Below are positions 26,929 through 55,985 of a stretch of 55,985 bases of DNA, piece by piece. How positions within the stretch are numbered: position 1 is the stretch's first letter; each line of letters begins with the position of its first letter. Made by a program: the position numbers and the translations under genes. The notes beneath the pieces were generated by a model, which did no database searches, was not told where the DNA came from, and was given only the letters and a program-made list of their open reading frames with translations. The stretch lies in IMG/VR virus record IMGVR_UViG_3300011116_000560, positions 1-55,985 of that record. One strand, 5' to 3'. The stretch comes from a virus.

Positions 26929-27273
26929 ATGGCCACCAATGCTAAAGCTGTTGCCCAAATGCTCCCCACTTATCACGTTGCCGCCAAGGGCAAAAACGTG
27001 GGGCAAGAGGTTCCTACTTGGGTTAGCATCGTCATCGATCCTAAAGATGTTGAAGCTAACAAGGCGCTGCAAGATGTGAAGGAAGCCGCCGCCAAAATGA
27101 ATGCGGCAAAGGAAGGGTTCGAGGCGCTCATCATCGCTCGACACGGGAACAGTGTTCCTCCGGGCCATGTCCTCAAGACTTCCTTCCTTCGCGGGTTCGA
27201 CAATGGAGTGATGGGCGCCATCCGCGAGGATGCCCCGGCCAAGTCGAACAGCAAGACGGGCTTCAGGCTCTAG
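26929..27273 (+). CDS. Early hypothetical protein (114 aa)
   Basis: A 114-residue protein with a good TGGAGA ribosome site. The sequence MATNAKAVAQMLPTYHVAAK is followed by a segment WVSIVIDPKDVEANKALQDV, a helix rich in Ala/Lys/Glu, and a C-terminal part with PPGHVLKTSFLRGFDNGVMG. No family is recognised. As the first gene after the early promoter it may act on the host soon after infection. This is context inference only. It has no signal peptide or membrane segment. Confidence 0.7.
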   Translation: MATNAKAVAQMLPTYHVAAKGKNVGQEVPTWVSIVIDPKDVEANKALQDVKEAAAKMNAAKEGFEALIIARHGNSVPPGHVLKTSFLRGFDNGVMGAIREDAPAKSNSKTGFRL

Positions 27274-27286
27274 TACCCTAGAACTA

Positions 27287-27311
27287 CCTGCCGGGCATTA
27301 TGCCCGGCAGG
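27287..27311 (+). promoter_or_regulatory. Leader hairpin before the 50-aa gene
   Basis: An 11-bp perfect stem (CCTGCCGGGCA with TGCCCGGCAGG) with a three-base loop. It ends 27 bases before the ATG at 27339. The following text CTTCCTTCAACC is similar to that after the next hairpin. No U-tract follows. Confidence 0.75.
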
Positions 27312-27338
27312 CCTTCCTTCAACCCATATGAGGTCAGC

Positions 27339-27491
27339 ATGTCACGTTCAAGGTGCTTTACCACCATTCAAGTCCCTATGAAGAATGGAAAGTATCGAAC
27401 CGTTCAACTGGAAATACGTCCAAAACGCCATCGTGAAGCAATATTGGCGCGGCTTAAAGTGAAGCACGCAATGATCGAGATAAAAGAATAG
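27339..27491 (+). CDS. Early hypothetical protein (50 aa), basic
   Basis: A 50-residue basic protein. The start at 27339 follows a GAGG site (ATGAGGTCAGCATG); an upstream in-frame ATG at 27300 lies within the hairpin loop and lacks a site. The sequence MSRSRCFTTIQVPMKNGKYR then TVQLEIRPKRHREAILARLK is rich in Arg/Lys. It could be a small nucleic-acid-binding or host-takeover protein. No homologue comes to mind. Confidence 0.65.
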   Translation: MSRSRCFTTIQVPMKNGKYRTVQLEIRPKRHREAILARLKVKHAMIEIKE

Positions 27492-27497
27492 GCTCAG

Positions 27498-27521
27498 AGG
27501 GAGAGGCGCAAGCCTCTCCCT
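27498..27521 (+). promoter_or_regulatory. Leader hairpin before the 56-aa gene
   Basis: A 10-bp stem (AGGGAGAGGC with GCCTCTCCCT) closes on a GCAA tetraloop, a GNRA-type loop. It ends 25 bases before the ATG at 27547. The following TCCTCTTCAACC resembles the sequence after the previous hairpin. Confidence 0.75.
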
Positions 27522-27546
27522 TCCTCTTCAACCAAACGAGGATAGC

Positions 27547-27717
27547 ATGAATACAGAAGCATTCAATGAACTAGCAGCGTGGCTTATTCGACGCGTGGCC
27601 TTACGCGAGATGGACCCGCTAAAGGCGCAGAGCTGGCTATATATGGCCTTTCAGCAGGTCAAAGACGGCTCTTACGTGGACTACCATCGAGCGGAAGACG
27701 CGCTATTCAAAGCCTAA
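27547..27717 (+). CDS. Early hypothetical protein (56 aa)
   Basis: A short gene starting ATG after an ACGAGGATAGC site. Its product reads MNTEAFNELAAWLIRRVALR, then EMDPLKAQSWLYMAFQQVKD and a C-terminal YHRAEDALFKA, predicted wholly helical. No family is recognised. It is the last gene before a classic terminator, completing a three-gene early operon. Its leader (hairpin, TTCAACC, GAGG, AGC-ATG) parallels that of the 50-residue gene. Confidence 0.7.
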   Translation: MNTEAFNELAAWLIRRVALREMDPLKAQSWLYMAFQQVKDGSYVDYHRAEDALFKA

Positions 27718-27725
27718 ACACAGAG

Positions 27726-27752
27726 AACCCCAGCGAAAGCTGGGGTTTTTTT
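27726..27752 (+). terminator. Intrinsic terminator of the early operon
   Basis: A perfect 9-bp GC-rich stem (AACCCCAGC/GCTGGGGTT) with a GAAA tetraloop is followed directly by a seven-base T run. This is a textbook rho-independent terminator and ends the three-gene early transcript 9 bases after the last stop codon. Confidence 0.95.
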
Positions 27753-28609: not shown

Positions 28610-29620
28610 ATGCGTCCGACCCTGCTCAAAGAGACCCTCAAGGCTCATTTCAACTCTGTTCGCCAACGATCCATCCTCGTTATTGGCGATCCGGGCTGCG
28701 GTAAGACCAGTGTAGCTGAGGAAACAGCCAGAGAGCTTGGCGTTCCTTGTATCACGCAGCATGTCCCGACCATGCTGGTCGAGGACTTCGGTGTGCCGTA
28801 CTTCGAGGCGGGTAGCCCCTCGTTTGGCTACAAGATGCCGGGCTGGTATCCCTACAAGGGCAAGGAAGGCACCGAGAAGGGTGGCGTCCTGCTGTTCGAT
28901 GATCGTGGCCAAGCCAGCAGCGACATACAGAAAGTAATCGCCAACATCGAGCAGGCCCGTACGCTCCATGGTGTGCATCTTGCAGATCGCTGGACGGTGT
29001 GGAGTACTGGTAACCATGTGTCTAACCGGGCAGGAGCGAACCGAGTGCTTAGCCATCTGGCTGACCGTGAGACGACCTATACCTTCGAGGCACATCTGGA
29101 CGACTGGACCAGCTGGGCGCTTGCTCATGGAGTGCACAAGATGGTTACCGGATTTATCCGGATGCGTCCGAGCGCCCTGCACGACTTTGACCCGCAACGC
29201 GACAAGAACGCCACTCCCCGTGGCTGGGTGGAAGGCGTTAGCGATGCCATCGGCATCGTGCCTGCCGAGGCTGAGTACGAGACCTATTGCGGTGCAGTAG
29301 GCGAGGGTCGTGCGGCTGAGTTCGCTGGGTACTGCAAGATCTACCGTACCCTGCCCGATCCCATGAGCATCCTGCTTAACCCCGACAAGGCAAAGCTGCC
29401 TGAGGACGTGGCAACGCTGTACGCTCTGGCAGGTGTGCTTAGCGAGGTGGTCACCGAGACTAACTTTGGCCGGATGACGCAGTACTTCGACCGGTTGCCT
29501 GAGGACAAGCAGGATATCAGCGTGCTTGCCGTCAGCTACGCCGTGCGTGGCAAGCCTGAACTTGGACACACTGCTGAGTTCACCGATTGGGCCGTTAAGC
29601 ATTCCAACGTATTATTCTAG
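28610..29620 (+). CDS. MoxR/CobS-like AAA+ ATPase (336 aa)
   Basis: The ATPase of a two-component AAA+/VWA set. Walker A GDPGCGKT is at residues 26-33, Walker B GVLLFDD at about 92-98, and a sensor-1 Asn in WSTGNHVSN at about 135, followed by an Arg-rich segment NRVLSHLADR that could give the arginine finger. Length is typical of MoxR or CobS-type ATPases. Such ATPases remodel substrates together with a VWA partner, here encoded at 30810-32003. The ribosome site AGAAGGAG is strong. It is the first gene after the putative origin region. Substrate is unknown; a role in metal insertion (as for CobS) or host-protein remodelling would both be possible. Confidence 0.85.
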   Translation: MRPTLLKETLKAHFNSVRQRSILVIGDPGCGKTSVAEETARELGVPCITQHVPTMLVEDFGVPYFEAGSPSFGYKMPGWYPYKGKEGTEKGGVLLFDDRGQASSDIQKVIANIEQARTLHGVHLADRWTVWSTGNHVSNRAGANRVLSHLADRETTYTFEAHLDDWTSWALAHGVHKMVTGFIRMRPSALHDFDPQRDKNATPRGWVEGVSDAIGIVPAEAEYETYCGAVGEGRAAEFAGYCKIYRTLPDPMSILLNPDKAKLPEDVATLYALAGVLSEVVTETNFGRMTQYFDRLPEDKQDISVLAVSYAVRGKPELGHTAEFTDWAVKHSNVLF

Positions 29621-29626
29621 TATTTT

Positions 29627-29653
29627 TGCAGGGTAGCAGTGTGTTACCCTGCA
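29627..29653 (+). promoter_or_regulatory. Hairpin between the ATPase and the 62-aa gene
   Basis: A 9-bp perfect stem (TGCAGGGTA/TACCCTGCA) with a nine-base loop. It ends 31 bases before the next start and is followed by GTTTGTCC, too poor in U for a strong terminator. It fits the recurrent leader-hairpin pattern. Confidence 0.65.
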
Positions 29654-29684
29654 GTTTGTCCATTTAGGATAGGGAGGAGATATT

Positions 29685-29873
29685 ATGGCGACCGGTAAGA
29701 AGTGGAAGAAACTGGACGAAGTGCGTGCTGAGCGCGAGGCCGTTGCGGCCAAAGCTCGCCAGCGCATCGAGGGTGTCGTTGAGTACGGACTTGAGCCAAC
29801 GAATGTTCTCGATAAGCTCCTTAATAAGGATGAGTGGGTCATATTTGACGTAGTACTAAAGGAGACAAAGTGA
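29685..29873 (+). CDS. Small charged hypothetical protein (62 aa)
   Basis: A 62-residue protein with an excellent GGGAGGAG ribosome site. The first half is a charged helix (MATGKKWKKLDEVRAEREAV then AAKARQRIEGVVEYGLEPTN); the second ends DEWVIFDVVLKETK. No family is recognised. Its stop overlaps the start of a 26-codon frame (TGATG). Position between the ATPase and its putative partners suggests an accessory or adaptor role in that set. This is inference only. Confidence 0.6.
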   Translation: MATGKKWKKLDEVRAEREAVAAKARQRIEGVVEYGLEPTNVLDKLLNKDEWVIFDVVLKETK

Positions 29874-29953
29874 TGACTTACGAAGAATTTCGAGCCAGAC
29901 TGCCAGCTGAATGCGATATTCCTCTACCAACACCAGAAGGAGAAAGCCAATGA
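29873..29953 (+). CDS. Very small coupled reading frame (26 aa)
   Basis: ATG at 29873 overlaps the preceding stop and has a GGAGA site 10 bases upstream. The product MTYEEFRARLPAECDIPLPT then PEGESQ is 26 residues. Its stop overlaps the next gene's start (AATGA). It may be a real micropeptide or only a device for translational coupling to the 287-residue gene downstream. Confidence 0.45.
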   Translation: MTYEEFRARLPAECDIPLPTPEGESQ

Positions 29954-30813
29954 CTAACCCGCTATATGATCGAGCCGTGCTTGCTCAGCTCACCATTACC
30001 CAGTGGTCGGCTCGCAAGCACGACAAGAATGTGAGCAAGAAGGCCGCTGATATCAGCCACGCGAACCAAGCGGCTGGGCGGTATCACAAGGCACTGTTGC
30101 CCATGAACAGCCACCTTGAGGCGGTGCACAGCAGCACCAGCGCCATCCGTGGCTGGCATGACGAACGAACCTTGCCGTGGGAGGGCCGTGGCGTGCGTAT
30201 GCTGCCGTCCCTGTCGTACTTGGAATACACGTCTGGGTTCAACACGCGGCGATCCACTCACGAAGCACTTGTGGAGCGGTTCCTCGATCAGTACGAGGTT
30301 GCCCGGCAGGCTGCGCCGTTCGCCTTAGGCGACATGTACGACGCCAACGACTACCCCCCACTGAGCGAGGTGCGGGGTAAGTTCTCCATCGATCTGGTTA
30401 TCAGCGCCGTGCCAGCCACAGACTTTCGCTGTCTGCCGTCAACTTTGCCGCAGAGCGCCATCGACGAGATCACCCGCAACGCCGACAGCCGCCTGTCCTC
30501 TGGGCAAGCAGCTGCGGAACGGGCGCTGTGGGAACGGTTGCTGGAGCGCGTCGAGAACATCGTCGAGCGTACTGGACACCCTGACCACAAGTTCCACAAC
30601 TCCCTGTTCGATGGAGCCGAGGAGCTGTGCCTGTTGTTGCCCAAGCTGAACTTCAACGACGACCAGAACCTCGTTATCCTCTGCAACGAGGTGCGGACCC
30701 ACCTGTGTAAGCACGCCCCTGAGGTCGTGCGAGCGGACCTGTTGGTTCGTAGCGACGTGAACGACAGTGCAACGCGCCTTGCGGCGCTTATCAAGGAGAC
30801 CATGCCATCATGA
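29950..30813 (+). CDS. Middle protein of the AAA+/VWA set (287 aa), possibly DUF3150-like
   Basis: A 287-residue, largely helical protein. The start at 29950 has an AGAAGGAG site and overlaps the preceding micro-frame. It has a Trp/Arg segment ('WHDERTLPWEGRGVRMLPSL'), a central 'YEVARQAAPFALGDMYDAND' helix, and a long helix near 'AAERALWERLLERVENIVER'. Proteins of this size lie between CobS-like ATPases and CobT-like VWA proteins in several phages and plasmids, and are often called DUF3150. I think it belongs there but cannot confirm this by eye. No enzymatic motif is seen. It overlaps the VWA gene by four bases, so the three are co-expressed. Confidence 0.6.
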   Translation: MTNPLYDRAVLAQLTITQWSARKHDKNVSKKAADISHANQAAGRYHKALLPMNSHLEAVHSSTSAIRGWHDERTLPWEGRGVRMLPSLSYLEYTSGFNTRRSTHEALVERFLDQYEVARQAAPFALGDMYDANDYPPLSEVRGKFSIDLVISAVPATDFRCLPSTLPQSAIDEITRNADSRLSSGQAAAERALWERLLERVENIVERTGHPDHKFHNSLFDGAEELCLLLPKLNFNDDQNLVILCNEVRTHLCKHAPEVVRADLLVRSDVNDSATRLAALIKETMPS

Positions 30814-32003
30814 ACAGCCCGATGCCTAAATCGATGAAGCTGCCCGACGACAAGGAGCTGCTCCTTAAGCTCGCTAAGGCTCGATCCAGCCTTGCGCTGG
30901 ACCATCCGTTCTTTGGTGCGCTGGCCATGGGTATTCCCCATGTGCTCGCCAACGTGCCAACGGCGCAGACAAACGGTAAGCGTGTCCAGTATGGTCGGAA
31001 GTTCTTGGCCAACCTGTCTGCTGCCGAGGTCAAGTTCTTGGTTGCCCATGAGTGTATGCACCCCATGCTGGGGCATCCGTGGCGTAGGGGCAACCGTAAC
31101 CCCAAGAAGTGGAACTATGCCGGTGACTACATCATCAACGGCATCCTGACTGCTGAGGGTATCGGTAAGATGATCGAAGGCGGTCTGCTTAACCCTGACA
31201 TTGTACAGCAAGGTGGCGGTACTACCGATGGCGTTTATGCTGCGCTGCCTGAGAACTACGAAGGCGACGAGCCGGGCGAAGGCGGCGAAGGTGGCGAAGG
31301 TGGCGATGGGCCGTATAACGGCACGCCGACCGACGAGTGCACTGACGACGAAGGTACACCGGCTGAGCTGAAGCAGGCTGAGGACGACTGGAAGGTTAAG
31401 ATCGCACAGGCTGCACAGGCTGCCCGCACTATGGGCAAAATGTCAGCCGGTGTAGAACTGCTTGTGGAGCAGATACTCACGCCCATCGTTGATTGGCGCG
31501 ACGTATTGCAGCGGTTCTTGGTTCGTCAGCGCACCGACGAGCGCACGTTCGCCCGGCCTAATCGCCGCTTTGCATCGCAGGGCCTATACTTGCCGAGCAC
31601 GACCGGCGAGGTAATGGGCGAAGTGGTGTTCTACATCGATTGCTCAGGGTCGGTGCTTAGCGTCATACCGCGTTTCGCTGCTGAGGTTAAAGCCGTGAAG
31701 GAGTGGCTTAATCCCACCAAGCTGCACGTTGTCTACTTCGACAGTGAAGTGTCGCATTATGAGTGCTTCGACCGCGATGCAGAACTGCATGTGGAGCCAC
31801 ACGGTGGCGGTGGCACAGCATTCTCGCCATGCTTCCGCTACATCGAGGAGCTTGGTGTCGAGCCGGTAGCCGCTGTGTTCCTCACCGATCTGTGTTGTAG
31901 CGACTTCGGACCTGCGCCTAGCTACCCGGTACTGTGGGTATCTATCTGCGAAGGCACCGCACCGTTCGGTGAAATCATCGTCATGAAGGAGGCGGCGCAA
32001 TGA
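30810..32003 (+). CDS. VWA-domain protein with N-terminal HExxH metallopeptidase-like domain (397 aa)
   Basis: The N-terminal domain contains VAHECMHPMLGH (HECMH at about 80-84, with a further His at 89), the zinc-binding signature of the DUF2201 metallopeptidase-like family. A Glu/Gly-rich acidic linker (about 150-175) is followed by a C-terminal VWA-like domain. Its metal-ion site begins VVFYIDCSGSVLSVIP (DxSxS). VWA proteins of this type act with MoxR-like ATPases, here the 28610-29620 product. Function of the pair in phages is not established to my knowledge. Chaperone, protease or metal-loading roles are all possible. The start overlaps the upstream gene as ATGA. Confidence 0.8.
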   Translation: MNSPMPKSMKLPDDKELLLKLAKARSSLALDHPFFGALAMGIPHVLANVPTAQTNGKRVQYGRKFLANLSAAEVKFLVAHECMHPMLGHPWRRGNRNPKKWNYAGDYIINGILTAEGIGKMIEGGLLNPDIVQQGGGTTDGVYAALPENYEGDEPGEGGEGGEGGDGPYNGTPTDECTDDEGTPAELKQAEDDWKVKIAQAAQAARTMGKMSAGVELLVEQILTPIVDWRDVLQRFLVRQRTDERTFARPNRRFASQGLYLPSTTGEVMGEVVFYIDCSGSVLSVIPRFAAEVKAVKEWLNPTKLHVVYFDSEVSHYECFDRDAELHVEPHGGGGTAFSPCFRYIEELGVEPVAAVFLTDLCCSDFGPAPSYPVLWVSICEGTAPFGEIIVMKEAAQ

Positions 32004-32368: not shown

Positions 32369-32557
32369 ATGAACGAGCTTTTACTAACCAATGCTGCCGC
32401 GATGATAGTGGCAGGACTGTATATCCATGCGCTGCACAAGCGACTGGGCAATGCGGAAGAGGCCAGCGAAGCGCTTGTTGGTGCTATATTGTTGCTTGCT
32501 CAGGACAAGGCCGTGCTGGAGATCAATGACACCGGCATAAAGGTGGTGCCGAAATGA
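32369..32557 (+). CDS. Small protein with one hydrophobic segment (62 aa)
   Basis: A 62-residue protein. The first 20 residues (MNELLLTNAAAMIVAGLYIH) may form a membrane-associated or signal-anchor helix. The rest is a short amphipathic helix ending in EINDTGIKVVPK. The TAGGAG ribosome site is good. Function unknown. It overlaps the next gene by four bases. Confidence 0.55.
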   Translation: MNELLLTNAAAMIVAGLYIHALHKRLGNAEEASEALVGAILLLAQDKAVLEINDTGIKVVPK

Positions 32558-33147
32558 ACAAGGAGCTTATCGAGAAGTATCGAGATATAAACGTCGAACA
32601 TAACGATTGGTGGGAGCATATCGAAAACTGTCTCATAGATCGTTTGCGAGACGAGTACGGCTTCGCCATGTACGGGCTTAAATGGACCGGGTTTAGTTCA
32701 CAGGGGGACGGAGCCTCGTTCACCGGCGAAGTATGGGAGTTCGACACGCTTGTTAACAAGCACCAAGAACTGCTGGGCGTTGCGCCAGTACTCTGTAAAC
32801 TGATACGCGCTAGTAAGGCTGATCTGTCGTTCCGCTTAGTTCGAGGAGGTAGCCGTTACTCCCATGAGAACACCGTAGCAGCTGAGATGAGTTTCACCAT
32901 GAAGTTTGCTAATTTCTTCGATGACTACGACTCTCCAGCGCTGCTTATTGAGAATGCAGTCAAGGCTTACGTTGGCGCAAACGAACTGGGTAAGTTCGAG
33001 AAAGCTGTACTGGATATGCTCAAGGACGAGATGCGTAAGGCGTATCGAGAGCTTGAAGCTGAGTATGACCACCTGACCAGCGATGGAGCTGTGTGGGAAA
33101 CCATCGTAGCCAATGAGCTACATAAAGAGGAGGAGGAGGAAGCATGA
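32554..33147 (+). CDS. Conserved phage protein of the 'GFxSQGDGASFxG' family (197 aa)
   Basis: A 197-residue protein with KWTGFSSQGDGASFTGEVWE near residue 46 and RGGSRYSHENTVAAEMSF near 100. The pattern 'GF.SQGDGA.F.G' followed by 'R...RY.H...' is shared by many phage proteins of unknown function. The C-terminus is a charged helical region ending in a run of Glu (EEEEEA). The gene is translationally coupled to both neighbours. I know no experimentally determined role. A DNA-modification or host-interaction function has no support in the sequence. Confidence 0.7.
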   Translation: MNKELIEKYRDINVEHNDWWEHIENCLIDRLRDEYGFAMYGLKWTGFSSQGDGASFTGEVWEFDTLVNKHQELLGVAPVLCKLIRASKADLSFRLVRGGSRYSHENTVAAEMSFTMKFANFFDDYDSPALLIENAVKAYVGANELGKFEKAVLDMLKDEMRKAYRELEAEYDHLTSDGAVWETIVANELHKEEEEEA

Positions 33148-33454: not shown

Positions 33455-34102
33455 ATGGCTACCGTACGTTTCAGCGAAGAACTTCGAGAGACGATCCTCA
33501 AAAATGCTGGAGGGCTGTATGTTGCTAGGGAGGTAGCGGCTATGGCCAATAGACCAGTTTACGTTGTCGAGCGTGTGTATGATCTAGTCATGGCTCCGTA
33601 TGCTGCGGGCATAGCCAAGCTGCCTGCAGTATTCTTCAGGTCTGCCAGTATGATTGTTATATCTACTGTAGCCGATGTGGCTATCCCTACCTCGTTGGAG
33701 TCTGCCAAGATCGAAAATCGTTACATTACGCCGTATGAGTTTCCTGCGTTAGGTCATGTGACGGTTAGCGGGGGCTACTACGGCTCGAACCAGTGGAAAC
33801 TGGAGAACACTCCGGAAACGGCTCCTATCATTGACGAAATCCGCGTCTGGGCAGAGGGCATATATAAAGTGCGTGCCGAGCGCGACAAGTTCGTGGAAGG
33901 CGTTAAGTCTATCATCACGGCATACGAGACGTTAGGCCCGGCCATCAAAGTTTGGCCCGCGCTTATCGATCTTTTGCCACCCCAAGCAAGGGAGAAGCAC
34001 GAACTGGTAGTGGAACGCAAGAAACGTGATGAGGTGGTCGTTGACGCTGATCTCAGCACGCTGACCAGTGCCGTTGTCCGTAGCAAACTGGGAGGTATGT
34101 AA
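33455..34102 (+). CDS. Hypothetical protein (215 aa)
   Basis: A 215-residue protein with an N-terminal helix-rich part ('FSEELRETILKNAGGLYVAR'), a beta-rich middle around SASMIVISTVADVAIPTSLE, and a C-terminal helical region ('IKVWPALIDLLPPQAREKHE'). The arrangement 'LP...REKH......K' recalls a phage protein family of unknown function that often lies in early regions of T4- and T7-like phages. A GGAGAA site precedes the start. It is probably co-transcribed with the genes on both sides. No function can be assigned. Confidence 0.6.
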   Translation: MATVRFSEELRETILKNAGGLYVAREVAAMANRPVYVVERVYDLVMAPYAAGIAKLPAVFFRSASMIVISTVADVAIPTSLESAKIENRYITPYEFPALGHVTVSGGYYGSNQWKLENTPETAPIIDEIRVWAEGIYKVRAERDKFVEGVKSIITAYETLGPAIKVWPALIDLLPPQAREKHELVVERKKRDEVVVDADLSTLTSAVVRSKLGGM

Positions 34103-40272: not shown

Positions 40273-41822
40273 TCGTTGAAGATAAACAGGCACTGGTAAT
40301 GCAGCTTAAGAACGCTACCCGCGTTCTGAGTGCGGTGCCGACAGCGGCTCCTCTATATCTAGGTGACAAGCAGCTTACCACCGTGCACCACGGTATCGAT
40401 GAAGTGCGTGTGCTGCGTAACCTAGGCATCGATGCGCCGTCACCGATCCTGCACTATTACGACTGGCCGGGCAGGTTCGCTCCGTTCGAGCACCAAAAGG
40501 CAACGGCTGCATTCCTCACGCTGACGCAGCGCGGGCTTGTCCTCAACGAGATCGGTACCGGCAAGAGCAACAGCGCCCTGTGGGCTGCTGACTACCTCAT
40601 GAACGAGGGATATGCGAAGCGCGTGCTGATTGTCTCTCCACTATCAACTCTGGAGCGGGTCTGGCACGACGCAATCTTCGAGCATCTCAGCCACCGTACA
40701 GCCGTTGTGCTGTATGGATCGGCGGCACGTCGCAAGAAGATGCTCGACCGCGAAGCAGACTTCTACATCATCAACCACGATGGCTTCTCTATTTTGTCCA
40801 ACCAGATGAACGATATGTTTGATATCGTCATCGTCGATGAAGCTGCCGTGTACCGTAACCCGTCGACAAAGCGGTTCAAGATACTCCGTAAGTGGATGGA
40901 CAATCAGCCAACGGCCACTCGCCTGTGGCTTATGACCGGAACGCCTACACCAAACGAGCCTACCGACGCGTGGGCACTGGCCAAGCTGGTTAACAGCCCA
41001 TTCATTCCGCCTTCGTACCATGCCTTCCGCGATCAGGTCATGTTCAAGCACGGCATGTACACATGGCTACCGCGACCGAACAGCGCCGAGCTAGTCAAGG
41101 ATGTGCTGCAGCCGTCTGTCAGATACACACGCGACGAATGTTTAGACCTGCCTGACACCATCGTGCAGGCTCGTAGGGCCGAACTGACTGCGGAGCAGGA
41201 GAAGCACTACAAGGATATGGTGCGTAACCTCGTCACCGAGGCTGCTGCCGGTACGATAACTGCCGCTAACGAAGCAGTTAAGTTGCAGAAGCTGATCCAG
41301 ATTGCCTGCGGTGTGGCGTACGACACCAAGGGTAAGCACCTTCAGCTCGACTGTTCGCCGCGCATTAACCTAGTTAAGGAGATCATCGAGGAGGCTGGCG
41401 AGAAGGTCATCATCTTCGTACCGCTTACCGGTACGCTTAATATGCTGGAGCAAGAACTAGCCAAACACTGGACGGTTGCTGTGGTTAACGGCGCGGTGAG
41501 CGCGGCTAAGCGCAACGTGATCTTTGATGATTTTCAGTCCAAGCCTGATCCACGAGTACTTATTGCGCACCCTGCGACAATGGCTCACGGACTGACACTG
41601 ACAGCGGCTTCTACCATCATCTGGTACGGGCCGATCAACAGCAACGAGCAGTACACCCAAGCCAACGGGCGTATCGAGCGCACCGGTAAGAAGCATACCT
41701 CTAACGTCATACACATAGAGTCTACGACGCTAGAGCGAAAGATGTACACGCGTCTGCAGCATAAGCAGAAACTACAAGGCGTACTGCTTGATCTAATCCA
41801 ACAGGAAATGGAGGTTATGTAA
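40266..41822 (+). CDS. SNF2/DEAD-type DNA helicase (518 aa)
   Basis: A superfamily 2 helicase. Motif Q-like FAPFEHQKATAAFLTLTQR near 71-89. Walker A LNEIGTGKS ends at K100. Motif Ia LIVSPLSTLERVWHD near 121. Motif II VDEAA (D191). Motif III 'LMTGTPTPNEPTD' follows, then motif IV and V regions, and motif VI YTQANGRIERTGKKHTSNVI. Such helicases occur in phage replication blocks and unwind or remodel DNA, possibly at forks. Start choice depends on the mini-frame overlap described above. Its stop precedes a ribosome-site cassette that is reused downstream. Confidence 0.85.
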   Translation: MLVVEDKQALVMQLKNATRVLSAVPTAAPLYLGDKQLTTVHHGIDEVRVLRNLGIDAPSPILHYYDWPGRFAPFEHQKATAAFLTLTQRGLVLNEIGTGKSNSALWAADYLMNEGYAKRVLIVSPLSTLERVWHDAIFEHLSHRTAVVLYGSAARRKKMLDREADFYIINHDGFSILSNQMNDMFDIVIVDEAAVYRNPSTKRFKILRKWMDNQPTATRLWLMTGTPTPNEPTDAWALAKLVNSPFIPPSYHAFRDQVMFKHGMYTWLPRPNSAELVKDVLQPSVRYTRDECLDLPDTIVQARRAELTAEQEKHYKDMVRNLVTEAAAGTITAANEAVKLQKLIQIACGVAYDTKGKHLQLDCSPRINLVKEIIEEAGEKVIIFVPLTGTLNMLEQELAKHWTVAVVNGAVSAAKRNVIFDDFQSKPDPRVLIAHPATMAHGLTLTAASTIIWYGPINSNEQYTQANGRIERTGKKHTSNVIHIESTTLERKMYTRLQHKQKLQGVLLDLIQQEMEVM

Positions 41823-41824
41823 TG
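41808..41824 (+). repeat. Translation-start cassette A (first copy)
   Basis: ATGGAGGTTATGTAATG is repeated exactly at 42314-42330. Each copy ends in the ATG of a gene (41822 and 42328). Seventeen identical bases at two gene starts 506 bases apart suggests duplication or shared control. Confidence 0.8.
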
Positions 41825-42280
41825 CTGTCTAGCGAACGGGCATGGCTGGCCACGGAATATTTATCTGGTCGTACACAGCGCCTAATTGCTAAGGGCATCC
41901 GTAGAGGTTCAGCAACGGTGTGTATAGAACTTAAATTGTTCTGTGATGAATGGTCCGGTGTTCGTGTAATGGAAGATAGAATTTATAGCGATGAGCGTAA
42001 GAAGTGTTTATGCCGCGCTCTGAAAAATTATCTTCGTACGAATGGCGCGGCTATAAAGAAACCAGCCGACCCTAAAGAGCCATATGCAATGGTTCTAGGG
42101 AACAAGTCTCCTAGACACGAACACGCGTGGTTGTTGCGTGTGGAAGGTAAGACCTACAAGGAGATAGGTGAACGACTAGGCGTAAGTAAAACACGAGCTG
42201 GTCAAATGATCGCTCAGTTTAGTCGTGTAATGGGTAGAGCACTTAGACGTGTTATAATAACAACAGGGAGAGTAACATGA
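41822..42280 (+). CDS. HTH protein, sigma-region-4-like C-terminus (152 aa)
   Basis: A 152-residue basic protein. The C-terminal 45 residues read AWLLRVEGKTYKEIGERLGV then SKTRAGQMIAQFSRVMGRAL, a clear helix-turn-helix of the sigma-70 region 4 or GcrA type. The N-terminal 100 residues contain a Cys/Arg-rich part. It may bind a promoter or the host polymerase; it lacks region 2, so it is not a complete sigma factor. It could be the late activator, but no direct evidence exists. The start follows repeated cassette A. Confidence 0.6.
   Translation: MLSSERAWLATEYLSGRTQRLIAKGIRRGSATVCIELKLFCDEWSGVRVMEDRIYSDERKKCLCRALKNYLRTNGAAIKKPADPKEPYAMVLGNKSPRHEHAWLLRVEGKTYKEIGERLGVSKTRAGQMIAQFSRVMGRALRRVIITTGRVT
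42265..42279 (+). repeat. Translation-start cassette B (first copy)
   Basis: AGGGAGAGTAACATG is repeated exactly at 42593-42607. The first copy ends in an ATG that opens only a ten-codon frame; the second begins the 132-residue gene. Confidence 0.8.
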
Positions 42281-51749: not shown

Positions 51750-52603
51750 CAGGAAGCGTCCTTCTGTCTGGCGATTATAGGTTTCATATTTATTTCACGG
51801 AGGGCAACAATTACGGCCAAGATCAGTGTGGTGCCCAAAAGTATCCACCCCCAGTGCATTCCTTGTACAATTGTTACCGTGGTGACAGTACCAACTACAG
51901 CAGCGCCCGACACTGCACCTTCTGGAACACGGTGCTTAAGCATCGTTTTTGGCTCTTGCGTAGCATTAAGAGCTATGAGGGGGCCCGCCTCTGCGGGCTT
52001 ACTCAATCCAAACTCCCACAGCTTAGCCTCTGATTCACGGCGAATCTGGAGGCCACGCAGTTCTGGCCATAGGCGTTTCATGGCCCGAAAATCATCTGCC
52101 ACAGCGCGTAGACTGCCAGCCAGTATATGCGCTTTGATATTACGCATTTCAGTATAACGAGCGCCACTTGTGTTAAAAGAAGCACCGCGATTATAGGCAA
52201 GACTGACTAACGCGCCAAGGCAGTCGGGCGGCAGTTTACCAGCACCGGGAATAGCATCGCACACACGTTTTACCCACTGTGGGATATCGTTATAAAGAAA
52301 CACTTTACAAGCGGTATCCCACGGGACGCTGATGAGGTTACGAACGGATGGCAACAGCGCAGCCGCAGCCTGACCGCGCACCCCGAGGCACTTCTCCATT
52401 ACTAAGATCATTTGCGCCGGTAGCATACCGTCAAAATCGTTATGAAGTTTGACGGCATCGGAGTACCCCAGATCATAACCGATGCCTACGGTAATGCCTG
52501 ACATACCGCCCGGCCACTCGGGATGCTGATACTTCTTTTCATACTGCGAGTGCGAAGTTACTTCGCACTCTATAATTAAGTCAACAGCGCGCTGCGAGAT
52601 CAT
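51749..52603 (-). CDS. Pesticin/T4-lysozyme-like muramidase with membrane tail (284 aa)
   Basis: A 284-residue lysin. The N-terminal 200 residues start with AVDLIIECEVTSHSQYEKKY (the catalytic Glu of the first helix), then EWPGGMSGITVGIGYDLGYS, in agreement with T4-lysozyme-fold muramidases of the pesticin type. After a linker, about residues 230-268 hold two hydrophobic segments (GAAVVGTVTTVTIVQGMHWG, WILLGTTLILAVIVAL) and a basic tail. A membrane anchor at the C-terminus is unusual for phage muramidases. The start overlaps the stop of the giant virion protein (ATGA). It works with the holins downstream. Confidence 0.75.
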   Translation of the reverse strand: MISQRAVDLIIECEVTSHSQYEKKYQHPEWPGGMSGITVGIGYDLGYSDAVKLHNDFDGMLPAQMILVMEKCLGVRGQAAAALLPSVRNLISVPWDTACKVFLYNDIPQWVKRVCDAIPGAGKLPPDCLGALVSLAYNRGASFNTSGARYTEMRNIKAHILAGSLRAVADDFRAMKRLWPELRGLQIRRESEAKLWEFGLSKPAEAGPLIALNATQEPKTMLKHRVPEGAVSGAAVVGTVTTVTIVQGMHWGWILLGTTLILAVIVALREINMKPIIARQKDAS

Positions 52604-55600
52604 TGGACAGAGCCTCCGCGTGGGTTGATGCCAGCAATGCTCATCTGCTCCAGCATCTTGTTACGAGCCGAGATCGGAGCAGACTTAAGCGAACGCTCGA
52701 CGGTGGACTTCCTAGCTTCGCGCAGCGCTTGAGCAGCATTGGTACCGAAGTTTCTGATCTCCAGCCCGGTGCCCAGCCACTTGGCAGTCTCGTTCCAGTC
52801 CCTGACGTTATCCTTGATGTGCTGCGCCGCTTCGGGGTCACCGGACTGCACGGCCTTGATGTAGTCCGTCTTGAACGCAGCACTGATCTCCTTGGCATAA
52901 TCTATAGAGGTCTTGTTAAGCCGAATCACATCGTTCTGCACCTTGGCAGCACTGGGGTAGAAGCCCATCAGGCGAGCCATGATCGTGGTAGACCCCATGT
53001 CCTTGCTGGCAACGTAGCCGCGCTTGTCCACGATGGCACCGGTCTGATAATACATAGCCGCATCACTCACCGCACGGACCATGGCCGCAGGGGATTCCCG
53101 TGCGACATCGATGGCTTTGTTAAGTGTCGGATCGTGCGCGAACCGGCTAAGTCCGTGGATCGTGGAAGCTGACTGTGACACGAACGACATGACCGGACCA
53201 GCGATGGCTTCCAGCTCACGACCAACGTCCGCACCGGCCTTGAAGATTCCCGTACCCGGCAGGATGTCGCCGTTAGCCACACGTTGACCGAGCGAGATGC
53301 CAAATATCTTATCAATACCGCCATGGTTGACAAAGTCGCCAAGTCCGGGGACGGCTTTCTCCAACAAAGCATAAAACTCAGCTTCCACACTGCCGATTGG
53401 TTTGCCCAAGATACGCTGAGATAGCGTTTCCAATACATCAATAAAGTCGTCTGCGAACGGGATACCGTGCATACCAGCCAAAATTACCAGCGCACCGAGC
53501 ATCATTATTTTGCCCTTGTAGTCCATGTTACGCATTAGTTCTGCGGACGTTACCGGAAATACCTTGTACATGAACAGCAGATGGCCAACGTCGCTCTGGA
53601 ACGCGCGCGGCAGAGCACCCAGTGAGTACTGGCCGAGCGTGTCATCGATCATCTTGTTGGAGAACGCAGTAGCGGTATCAAACGCTTCCTGCATTTTATC
53701 GGCGTACTTAGGATCATTAGGCAGTAGAAGTCTTGTCTGTTTGTCGTACTCCAACCGGAATGCAGCCAGACCGGTAGCGCGCCGTGATGCCTGTTCCGCG
53801 ATATTAAACGGCACCATCATGAGCTGGAAGGCCTGCTGCAGTCTGGAGTCGGTGTCACCACGCGCGTTAGCGCCCTGCGCATCTGCCTGCGCAGCCTGCA
53901 TACGGCCAGACTGCGTTTCCTTGAATAGGAACTCGGCTTCCAGCCGCGTAAGGTGCCATTTGGCACGAAGTGCTTTGGCTTCAGCCGTGTCCGTTTTAGG
54001 GATCATGGCCTTGAACGTGTCGGAGTCCGAAGCACCGATACCAGTGGTCTGCTTAAGCGCCTTATACACCTCGACGTGCGCCCTGCCGATACCAAAGCCG
54101 CCACCGAACGACCGCTTCTGGTTATAAGTCGCCAGTGCAGGGATGACGTTGGTCTGGAGAGCGATGAGCTGGATGGCAGCGGTGGCCATCGACGCACCCA
54201 TCTGGGCCACGGCAGTCCACTGCCGCAGCTGTTTAATGAACGTACCATCAGCAAAGTTGGTGGTGTCGGTGTTCGACTGTGAGTCGATAAAGTGCAGGTT
54301 CTCCAAGGCAATCGACTTGTACGTATTACCAGTGCGCTCAGATTCGTTTACTTTGGTCATGTAGTGGTATAGCTCAAACTTTTCCGCGGCAGCTTTGTCT
54401 GCAGGGTTTGCTTCGTGCGCGGCCTTCAGCGTATTGTACTCACCCTTTTCGCTGAAATCACCGAACCACAACTTATTGCTGCTATCCAGCGAGCCGTCGA
54501 ACAGGGTGTCCAAGAGCGGGCGGTGGATGCGACGAGCGATAGAGGCAGAGACGTTCTGCAAGTACTCTGACGCAGACCGTGCCATATCCGAGTCACCACC
54601 GGGGTGACCACGGCGCTCAAGGCTCTTACGGCTGTTGTCGCTCTGCTTGGTGATTGCCGTGACGAGATCAGCCCGCTTCTCAGGAGGCAGGTTGATGTTG
54701 AACGCAGCGATGGCATCCAAGACAGTGTTGAGGTTACTGGCAGACGGTACCGTGCCGTCCTTAAGCACAGTCCCCTGCACAGCGCGGAACGTGACCGGGG
54801 CGTACTCGTAGTTGTTGCCCACCATGACACGCATACTGATTGGCGGCATGTTCTTGAAGGCCCGGTTAAGGTCTTCCGCTGCAGTCGTGGCGGCAGCTAG
54901 ATCGTTCTTCTGCCAGTACCCCATCATCTGCGAGAACTCGTCGGCAACCTTAACGGCCTTGCCGTTGGAGTCGACAGCCTCGACGCGGATCGAGTGGTCG
55001 CCACGGCGTACGACCGGAATATAGTTGCGGGCGATGTTTAGCTTGGAGTGCATATCCGAGTTCTCACTGGTCTGCTGGAGCAGGCCCATGTTGAGAACGA
55101 GATGCTGTGCGTCGTACCGGGTCTCGTTAACCGCCTCGGCATTGATACGGCTGTCCTCGCGCAGTGAGGTGATGGCGTCCACCACCTCTGCCTTAGTCAG
55201 AGCGGTAGCCTTGAGATCGCCGGTCTTGTCCTCGAAGAACTTGGTTAGGTCTGCGATACGGTCGGTGTCCTTGCCGATAAGCACCTTATTGAACGCAACA
55301 GCCATCTCGTTGGCTGACTTCATCGAGTCGGTATTGTACTCTACGGAGCCACCGGTTTCGTCACGGTTAAGGGCATACATGCGCACGTAGCGTTCAACTA
55401 GATTGTCGATAAACTTCTTTTCATTGTCCTTCAGCTTGCGGCCCATCTCCGAAGCCAGCTTGTCCAGCATATGCGCCTGCTTGACCTTGGCACCACCGAT
55501 ATCAGCGATAACGTGCTGGATGGCAGCGTGGACCATGGCGCTCTGTTGGCCGTTGTCAAAGTGCTCCTTATACGCACGCCACAACTTGCTGTCTTCGGTC

Positions 55601-55985
55601 AGGCCGGGGATGCCCTTGAACGGCATAGGCAGAACTTCGTCCCGGTTACGCGTCTTGAGGATATCCGCTTTCTCTTTCTTGAGCTTCTGAGCAGCCTCAG
55701 GAGTTGTGGCGGCAGCAATAAGCGCATCATACTTGGCGTCTACCGCGTCGATTTCTTCCTTGGTCATGGGGACACCGGCGAACCGCGCCATGTCAAACCC
55801 GTCCCGGAAGTCTGCCATCGGTATACGCGCCATATCGAGAAGCTGGTTAAGCACCTTTTCGTTGACTGACGGGTTACCAAGCGCATCGACCGTAACGAGT
55901 TCGCCTGTGACGCGGCGCACGTCGGCGTATTTAACGGTGTTGTGGCCATGGATGTTGGCAGCCATGAGCAGTTCGTTAAGCTGTG
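52600..55985 (-). CDS. Giant polyvalent virion protein, C-terminal part (runs off the right edge)
   Basis: This frame is open from the right edge to a stop at 52600 and continues the frame of 4345-1 across the circle, with lengths that fit exactly (7,572 nt, 2,524 codons). The first Met in this part (55965) is internal. The C-terminal 1,100 residues are largely helical. A segment with EQASRRATGLAAFRLEYDKQ, then GQYSLGALPRAFQSDVGHLL and MYKVFPVTSAELMRN, followed by MHGIPFADDFIDVLETLSQR, is typical of the C-terminal domains of phage large polyvalent proteins (PLxRFAG/LPD38-like). Such domains are packaged in the virion and enter the host. The stop overlaps the muramidase start. Confidence 0.8.
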   Translation of the reverse strand, partial: QLNELLMAANIHGHNTVKYADVRRVTGELVTVDALGNPSVNEKVLNQLLDMARIPMADFRDGFDMARFAGVPMTKEEIDAVDAKYDALIAAATTPEAAQKLKKEKADILKTRNRDEVLPMPFKGIPGLTEDSKLWRAYKEHFDNGQQSAMVHAAIQHVIADIGGAKVKQAHMLDKLASEMGRKLKDNEKKFIDNLVERYVRMYALNRDETGGSVEYNTDSMKSANEMAVAFNKVLIGKDTDRIADLTKFFEDKTGDLKATALTKAEVVDAITSLREDSRINAEAVNETRYDAQHLVLNMGLLQQTSENSDMHSKLNIARNYIPVVRRGDHSIRVEAVDSNGKAVKVADEFSQMMGYWQKNDLAAATTAAEDLNRAFKNMPPISMRVMVGNNYEYAPVTFRAVQGTVLKDGTVPSASNLNTVLDAIAAFNINLPPEKRADLVTAITKQSDNSRKSLERRGHPGGDSDMARSASEYLQNVSASIARRIHRPLLDTLFDGSLDSSNKLWFGDFSEKGEYNTLKAAHEANPADKAAAEKFELYHYMTKVNESERTGNTYKSIALENLHFIDSQSNTDTTNFADGTFIKQLRQWTAVAQMGASMATAAIQLIALQTNVIPALATYNQKRSFGGGFGIGRAHVEVYKALKQTTGIGASDSDTFKAMIPKTDTAEAKALRAKWHLTRLEAEFLFKETQSGRMQAAQADAQGANARGDTDSRLQQAFQLMMVPFNIAEQASRRATGLAAFRLEYDKQTRLLLPNDPKYADKMQEAFDTATAFSNKMIDDTLGQYSLGALPRAFQSDVGHLLFMYKVFPVTSAELMRNMDYKGKIMMLGALVILAGMHGIPFADDFIDVLETLSQRILGKPIGSVEAEFYALLEKAVPGLGDFVNHGGIDKIFGISLGQRVANGDILPGTGIFKAGADVGRELEAIAGPVMSFVSQSASTIHGLSRFAHDPTLNKAIDVARESPAAMVRAVSDAAMYYQTGAIVDKRGYVASKDMGSTTIMARLMGFYPSAAKVQNDVIRLNKTSIDYAKEISAAFKTDYIKAVQSGDPEAAQHIKDNVRDWNETAKWLGTGLEIRNFGTNAAQALREARKSTVERSLKSAPISARNKMLEQMSIAGINPRGGSVQ
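55827..55985. repeat. Right copy of the terminal overlap
   Basis: Same 159 bases as window positions 1-159, with three differences. This copy encodes VNEKVLNQLLDMA in the giant protein, while the left-edge copy encodes VNGEVLNQLPDMA. The reading frame is intact in both, but only this copy has its flanking upstream codons in place. Confidence 0.9.

Follow-up and report, generated by a model that had tools for sequence, protein, structure and literature searches.

AAA+ ATPases and VWA proteins encoded by neighbouring genes are already known from phages. In N4-like phages they are represented by gp24 and gp25 (PHROG_1297 and PHROG_1314, core of the Schitoviridae), two of the 14 N4-like core genes, which are middle-transcribed and listed without known function (PMC4193335). 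For jumbo phages, the parts of the article by Iyer et al. (2021, PMC7824862) considered here report a MoxR ATPase together with a vWA domain fused to an N-terminal metallopeptidase, propose a role in virion assembly, and mention no third component. Here, we analysed a related locus in a freshwater phage with a podovirus-like genome, IMG/VR virus record IMGVR_UViG_3300011116_000560 (the whole analysed stretch of 55,985 bases is called the window in the following). Positions 28610–32003 of the plus strand encode an ATPase and a VWA protein with the same architecture as the jumbo phage pair and, between them, a helical protein of 287 aa. This middle protein is the newly noticed part, as the third partner of the ATPase-VWA pair seems never to have been described before as part of it. 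The three genes form a conserved unit, and we lean, with little more than even confidence, towards a three-subunit, ATP-driven remodelling or protease machine that serves the establishment or replication of incoming DNA.

The first gene (28610–29620) encodes an AAA+ ATPase of 336 aa of the MoxR/CbbQ/midasin-like type, which is a full-length member of the N4 gp24 family (PHROG_1297, E 5.6e-55, residues 19–335 on 25–353 of 356) and which matches the Pfam AAA model with 26 bits (cut-off 21.2). The MoxR Pfam model AAA_3 did not match the window ATPase, but Walker A, Walker B, sensor 1, arginine finger, and midasin/CbbQ affinity place it among the MoxR-type AAA+ proteins; among the solved relatives found with the family profile, midasin ranked first and CbbQ/NorQ lower. 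An initial sequence-only reading had described both Walker motifs as intact. This holds for Walker A (GDPGCGKT, including K32), but in Walker B (LLFDD) the usual catalytic Glu is replaced by Asp (D98). Across homologues, Walker A, sensor N135, R153, and a PRxW motif are conserved. Residues 97–98 of Walker B read DD in the clade of the window phage and in Burkholderiales plasmids carrying the third gene, and DE in phages with the pair only; judged from sequence comparison, DD is a marker of the branch formed by the window clade and the Burkholderiales plasmids. One clade member (L145) displays DY at this position. A translated search with the ATPase retrieved 523 phage records, N4-like phages included. 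Overall, the window pair resembles N4 gp24/gp25 in full length, gene order, catalytic and MIDAS (metal ion-dependent adhesion site) residues, and position in an early/middle region ahead of the DNA polymerase, but differs by an identity of only about 25–33% and by Walker B, which is FDE in N4 and FDD here.

The last gene (30810–32003) encodes a VWA protein of 397 aa belonging to the N4 gp25 family (PHROG_1314, E 4.9e-87). The sequence-only reading of a MoxR/VWA-type set thus proved right. The single chain carries an N-terminal zincin-like domain (HExxHxxxxH) followed by a C-terminal VWA domain, and is a member of both DUF2201_N (1.3e-41; 143 bits, cut-off 23.2) and DUF2201 (7.9e-22; 78 bits, cut-off 26.4). 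The HECMH and DxSxS sites pointed out from the letters alone are indeed present (H80-E81-C-M-H84 and D277-x-S279-x-S281), and the latter, together with T336 and D360, completes the MIDAS. Since H80, E81, H84, H89, R92, D106, N110, D277, S279, S281, T336, and D360 are invariant in 25 phage and plasmid homologues, chance is excluded for these twelve residues; the conserved pattern reads HExxHxxxxH...NxAxDxxIN followed by the full MIDAS. In the structural model, the N-terminal part came closest to the mini-protease selecase MJ1213 (E 4e-3, probability 1.0), and the C-terminal part resembled VWA domains including the MIDAS domain of midasin (MDN1); the E-values of these fold matches are weak (4e-3 to 1e-2) and their probabilities high. 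On this basis, the N-terminal domain is a predicted zinc metallopeptidase. A translated search with the VWA protein resulted in 537 phage records. Many RefSeq phage proteins of PHROG_1314 are labelled as 'HNH endonuclease', 'homing endonuclease', or 'DNA repair ATPase'. The first of these names was considered and rejected, as no HNH Pfam match was found and the model consists of zincin plus VWA; on these metallopeptidase-VWA proteins the name 'HNH endonuclease' is an error.

The middle gene (29950–30813) is joined to the VWA gene by an ATGA at 30810–30813. Its product revealed no Pfam or PHROG match, while tblastn led to cyanophage MinM2 (2e-17) and to 41 plasmids (to 4e-40). The AlphaFold model (mean pLDDT 83) displays long helices at residues 87–129 and 168–209 and matches a viral model annotated as DUF3150 (E 3.7e-14, TM 0.78); the fold search against solved structures resulted in nothing significant. 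At the sequence level, the window protein did not match DUF3150 (PF11348) at E 1 and thus stays below the curated cut-off, and among its relatives one plasmid member and one phage member gave marginal matches (1e-4; 1.8e-5). The middle protein is therefore a distant DUF3150 relative rather than a member of that family, for which we found no naming paper in the open-access literature searched. Genes passing the PF11348 cut-off stand in comparable surroundings: seven canonical DUF3150 genes adjoin VWA genes (mostly CobT-like) and/or AAA_5 genes, the VWA neighbours having 530–730 residues and the AAA_5 gene being CobS-like where tested. Such canonical trios share with the window the three-part composition and often the gene order, but they use other AAA and VWA families, and their VWA proteins lack the DUF2201 metallopeptidase domain. 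Thus, two parallel trios are built on the same plan with different ATPase and VWA families.

Scans of virus contigs with the window's own ATPase and middle protein gave no matches, and the phage clade was reached via a scan with the terminase and then with the middle protein of a relative. The terminase search of environmental viral contigs revealed 80 relatives, 20 of which were long and were searched further (linear records, which may be fragments). All three genes were found in 14/20, the identical 14 in each search; in the remaining six records, the ATPase was cut at the contig end (two records) or no gene of the trio was present (four records). The order ATPase-middle-VWA was displayed by all 14, the last two genes often overlapping by 4 bp. 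The second scan, started from the relative's middle protein, led to 27 loci with the same trio pattern and with gaps only at contig ends.

Bacterial genomes were scanned with the middle protein alone (a profile from four close sequences), and each of the 11 loci fetched in this way had adjacent ATPase and VWA genes. These loci were labelled as Pseudomonadota, Desulfobacterota, Acidobacteriota, and Bacteroidota, in addition to one contig from a metagenome-assembled genome that belongs to the phage group. Five further genomic loci from profile searches likewise carried both partners (5/5). The 41 plasmids with a middle protein were distributed over Burkholderia (13), Cupriavidus (8), Paraburkholderia (8), Variovorax (4), Caballeronia (4), Rhodovastum (2), Simplicispira (1), and Robbsia (1), and the plasmids with the VWA protein gave exactly these genus counts. 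The middle gene is flanked by the ATPase and VWA genes in MinM2 and in each of the six plasmids opened; in Bacteroidota, the order is ATPase-VWA-middle. The latter change would suit a machine that consists of the two-protein pair alone, with the DUF3150-like protein as a merely frequent passenger, and so would the many phages with a pair but no middle protein. Against this, 16/16 bacterial loci found through the middle protein have both partners, which holds for several phyla and also where the order is changed, DUF3150 occurs in a parallel trio whose AAA and VWA proteins are of different families, and the middle gene is under selection resembling that on its partners (see below). We therefore regard a mere passenger as unlikely.

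Trees of the three proteins over 32 loci gave the same five groups (local support 0.70–1.0), namely the phage clade, Burkholderiales plasmids, Rhodocyclus/Dechloromonas, Bacteroidota, and MinM2 with a Rhodovastum plasmid. Pairwise distance correlations among the three proteins ranged from 0.89 to 0.94, and for the non-phage members none of 2000 label permutations reached the observed correlations. The three genes have moved mostly as a unit. The ratio of non-synonymous to synonymous substitutions (dN/dS) was 0.06–0.21 for all three genes (seven pairs each), i.e., the ATPase, middle, and VWA genes are all under purifying selection. Within the clade, the middle protein diverges most, with 33–39% identity to the window copy compared to 51–60% for its partners. 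One contig binned as an actinobacterial metagenome-assembled genome (L158) falls inside the phage clade in all three trees and is either a mis-binned phage contig or a hint on the host.

Several observations weigh against a general three-subunit machine. Most phages with the pair lack the middle protein, e.g., N4-like EcP1, phage G, phiFa, CRP-7, and PA5oct, so that the third part is dispensable in some settings. In EcP1, the two genes are adjacent without an intervening gene, and no DUF3150-like match was found in its record; in phage G, CRP-7, and phiFa, long proteins encoded close to the pair were considered as candidates, but none matched the profile of the middle protein. In Rhizobium phage RHph_TM3_14A, a cultured relative, an ATPase is annotated and the VWA protein is present, but a third protein was not detectable. 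Among the 32 VWA homologues, one is without HExxH and one without the exact DxSGS. Finally, the plasmid contexts of the trio differ among themselves, so that the neighbourhood is a weak pointer to function.

Regarding these neighbourhoods, the trio is carried in bacteria mostly by plasmids, conjugative transposons, or phage-like segments and often lies beside primase, ParB, or type IV secretion genes. Plasmid carriers harbor PRTRC and type IV secretion system genes, and the Bacteroidota elements encode TraM, DUF4138, ParB, and Prim-Pol near the trio; further neighbours are primase/Toprim proteins, PD-(D/E)XK nucleases, and Pol A. In the window, the structural genes (terminase, head-tail adaptor/portal, major head, and internal virion proteins) lie on the minus strand left of 26.6 kb, while the replication genes (family A DNA polymerase, helicase, and primase) are encoded on the plus strand, where the ATPase, middle, and VWA genes are grouped with them and with other early genes. 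This distribution bears on a role in virion assembly, with the ATPase as chaperone and the VWA protein as protease maturing structural proteins, as was proposed for the jumbo phage pair in PMC7824862, and by analogy with the archaeal virus ATV. Such a role would agree with the wide occurrence of the pair in tailed phages and with virion proteins encoded near the gp24/gp25 homologues of some N4-like roseophages (PMC4193335). However, the N4 homologues are middle genes (PMC4193335), the window trio lies off the structural-gene strand, and trios with congruent trees are found on conjugative plasmids and conjugative transposons. Since these elements make no capsid, virion assembly is not the general role of this branch, and we consider it quite unlikely for the window locus.

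A second role known for AAA+/VWA partners is metal loading, either as a CobS/CobT-like cobaltochelatase or as a NorQ/NorD-like metal-insertion chaperone that boosts a host metalloenzyme (viral CobST hypothesis, PMC8651126). The sequence-only reading had also considered CobS and metal loading, which was not supported here. The AAA+/VWA architecture is shared, and canonical DUF3150 genes adjoin CobS-like and CobT-like genes, but the window VWA protein matches DUF2201 instead of CobT, no CobT or CobS model of Pfam or NCBIfam was matched, and CobN was not seen among the scanned proteins in a search that was not exhaustive; the CobST cobaltochelatase was thus rejected as an assignment. Moreover, HExxH, which would be needless in a chelatase partner, is kept in 31/32 homologues. 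In NorQ/NorD, the ring twists the VWA partner via a finger in the ring pore (PMC13036017). The window VWA domain is short (about 120 residues), and a NorD-type finger insertion does not seem evident in its model. Taken together, metal loading is very improbable. Midasin (Rea1/MDN1) and NorQ/NorD nevertheless share with the proposed machine the coupling of an AAA+ ring to a VWA/MIDAS domain, but midasin is a single giant chain, and for neither system is a protease domain or a DUF3150 partner known.

In the machine that we favour, a MoxR/midasin-type AAA+ ring (28610–29620) would be coupled to the VWA protein (30810–32003), whose C-terminal domain would hold a ligand through the MIDAS metal. The DUF3150-like protein (29950–30813) would be the constant third subunit, most likely an adaptor, either for target selection or for linking ring and VWA protein, and its long helices could replace the NorD-type finger. 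ATP turnover would pull or twist the captured protein, which might be remodelled or fed to the HExxH site; the target may be a host protein, for instance one of defence, replication, or transcription, or a protein bound to the element's own DNA. On conjugative plasmids, on conjugative transposons, and in several phage lineages, the trio lies beside primase, ParB, polymerase, or transfer genes, so that it would most likely serve these carriers when their incoming DNA has to be established or replicated in a new cell. Entry into new cells and replication of the DNA are common to the carriers, which favours a remodelling or cleaving machine for these steps. A bolder generalisation, which we put forward tentatively and rather doubt, would make DUF3150-like proteins the universal third subunit of a class of AAA+/VWA machines found in phages, plasmids, and conjugative transposons; these machines would come in two or more parallel versions (with a metallopeptidase-VWA or a CobT-like VWA protein), each an ATP-driven remodeller or protease helping incoming DNA to establish itself via a host protein.

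In a narrower form, which overlaps with the favoured machine and follows a suggestion of the sequence-only reading, it would act in counter-defence or host takeover and unfold or cleave a single protein of host immunity or regulation. The trio is carried by unrelated elements that have to enter new cells and face the same defences there, its position is early, a protease is predicted, and the middle protein diverges faster, as a part that faces the target could do. A location on plasmids and conjugative transposons also fits counter-defence or modification of a host enzyme better than virion assembly. However, none of the neighbours was found to be associated with defence, genes for replication are at least as common beside the trio, and dN/dS indicates purifying, not diversifying, selection. 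We therefore judge this narrower role possible, yet rather unlikely. A known defence system was likewise not recognised at the locus, since PADLOC returned generic AAA matches only. VMAP, iSTAND, and other MoxR-vWA ternary conflict systems (Kaur et al. 2020, PMC7159879) also combine MoxR, vWA, and an obligate third protein, but they are immunity-like, occur in multicellular bacteria, and have effector domains fused to vWA, and their third protein is unrelated by Pfam scan. Assignment to VMAP was rejected, as the third protein of the window has no Pfam match and its VWA protein no extra domain.

The open reading frames of the locus lie where the sequence-only reading had placed them, and its overlapping or coupled starts were all recovered (TGATG at 29871–29875, ATGA at 29950–29953, and the ATGA between the middle and VWA genes). 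Of the set it had described, the 287-aa protein belongs to the unit by linkage and congruent trees, but the two small plus-strand frames are local to the window phage. The 62-aa frame (29685–29873) lies outside the conserved unit and has no homologue in any other locus compared, and the 26-codon frame (29873–29953), coupled by TGATG to the 62-aa frame and by the first ATGA to the middle gene, gave besides its own locus two weak matches only (E 0.05) among the loci compared. Between the ATPase gene and the 62-aa frame, a strong plus-strand hairpin (29628–29652) belongs to a 76-nt fold of −27.7 kcal/mol (z −4.8) and may serve in processing or attenuation. Ahead of the ATPase gene, a strong plus-strand intrinsic terminator (27722–27751; 13-pair stem followed by a T-rich tail) marks the start of a separate transcription unit containing this gene. 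The trio had been placed first after a candidate origin, which is true only loosely, as three small frames (26929–27717) and this terminator precede the ATPase gene; GC skew merely tracks the switch of coding strand near 26.6 kb.

Downstream of the VWA gene, a plus-strand gene (32554–33147) encodes a 197-aa protein of PHROG_5162 (E 3.4e-26; 32 phmmer matches), which is conserved at this close position within the phage clade and is not in the trio elsewhere. Further along, a 215-aa protein (33455–34102) revealed a weak match to the nucleotide-modification-associated domain Nmad5 (E 1.7e-5, just below the cut-off), so that the phage DNA may be modified, and a 152-aa protein (41822–42280) weakly matched the phage RNase E-related PHROG_645. 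On the minus strand, a 1121-aa protein (52600–55965) matches with its C-terminal half PHROG_11358 (3431 aa, function unassigned), over the final 500 residues of the latter. A relative of 62.4 kb (L142, record G005) has the trio at both ends, which overlap by about 6.6 kb; this suggests a genome of about 55.8 kb, near the length of the window.

With respect to the phages themselves, N4 gp24 and gp25 belong to the core of an entire phage family and were left without known function in the core-genome study (PMC4193335), and the current guesses (virion assembly, cobalamin, 'HNH endonuclease') each clash with something in the present data. Since plasmids and conjugative transposons also have the third partner, the question can be narrowed to steps that all incoming DNA has in common, and the trio is a small, testable candidate complex. 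If our reading is true, it would provide the first role for DUF3150, and the wrong label on many phage records would be corrected.

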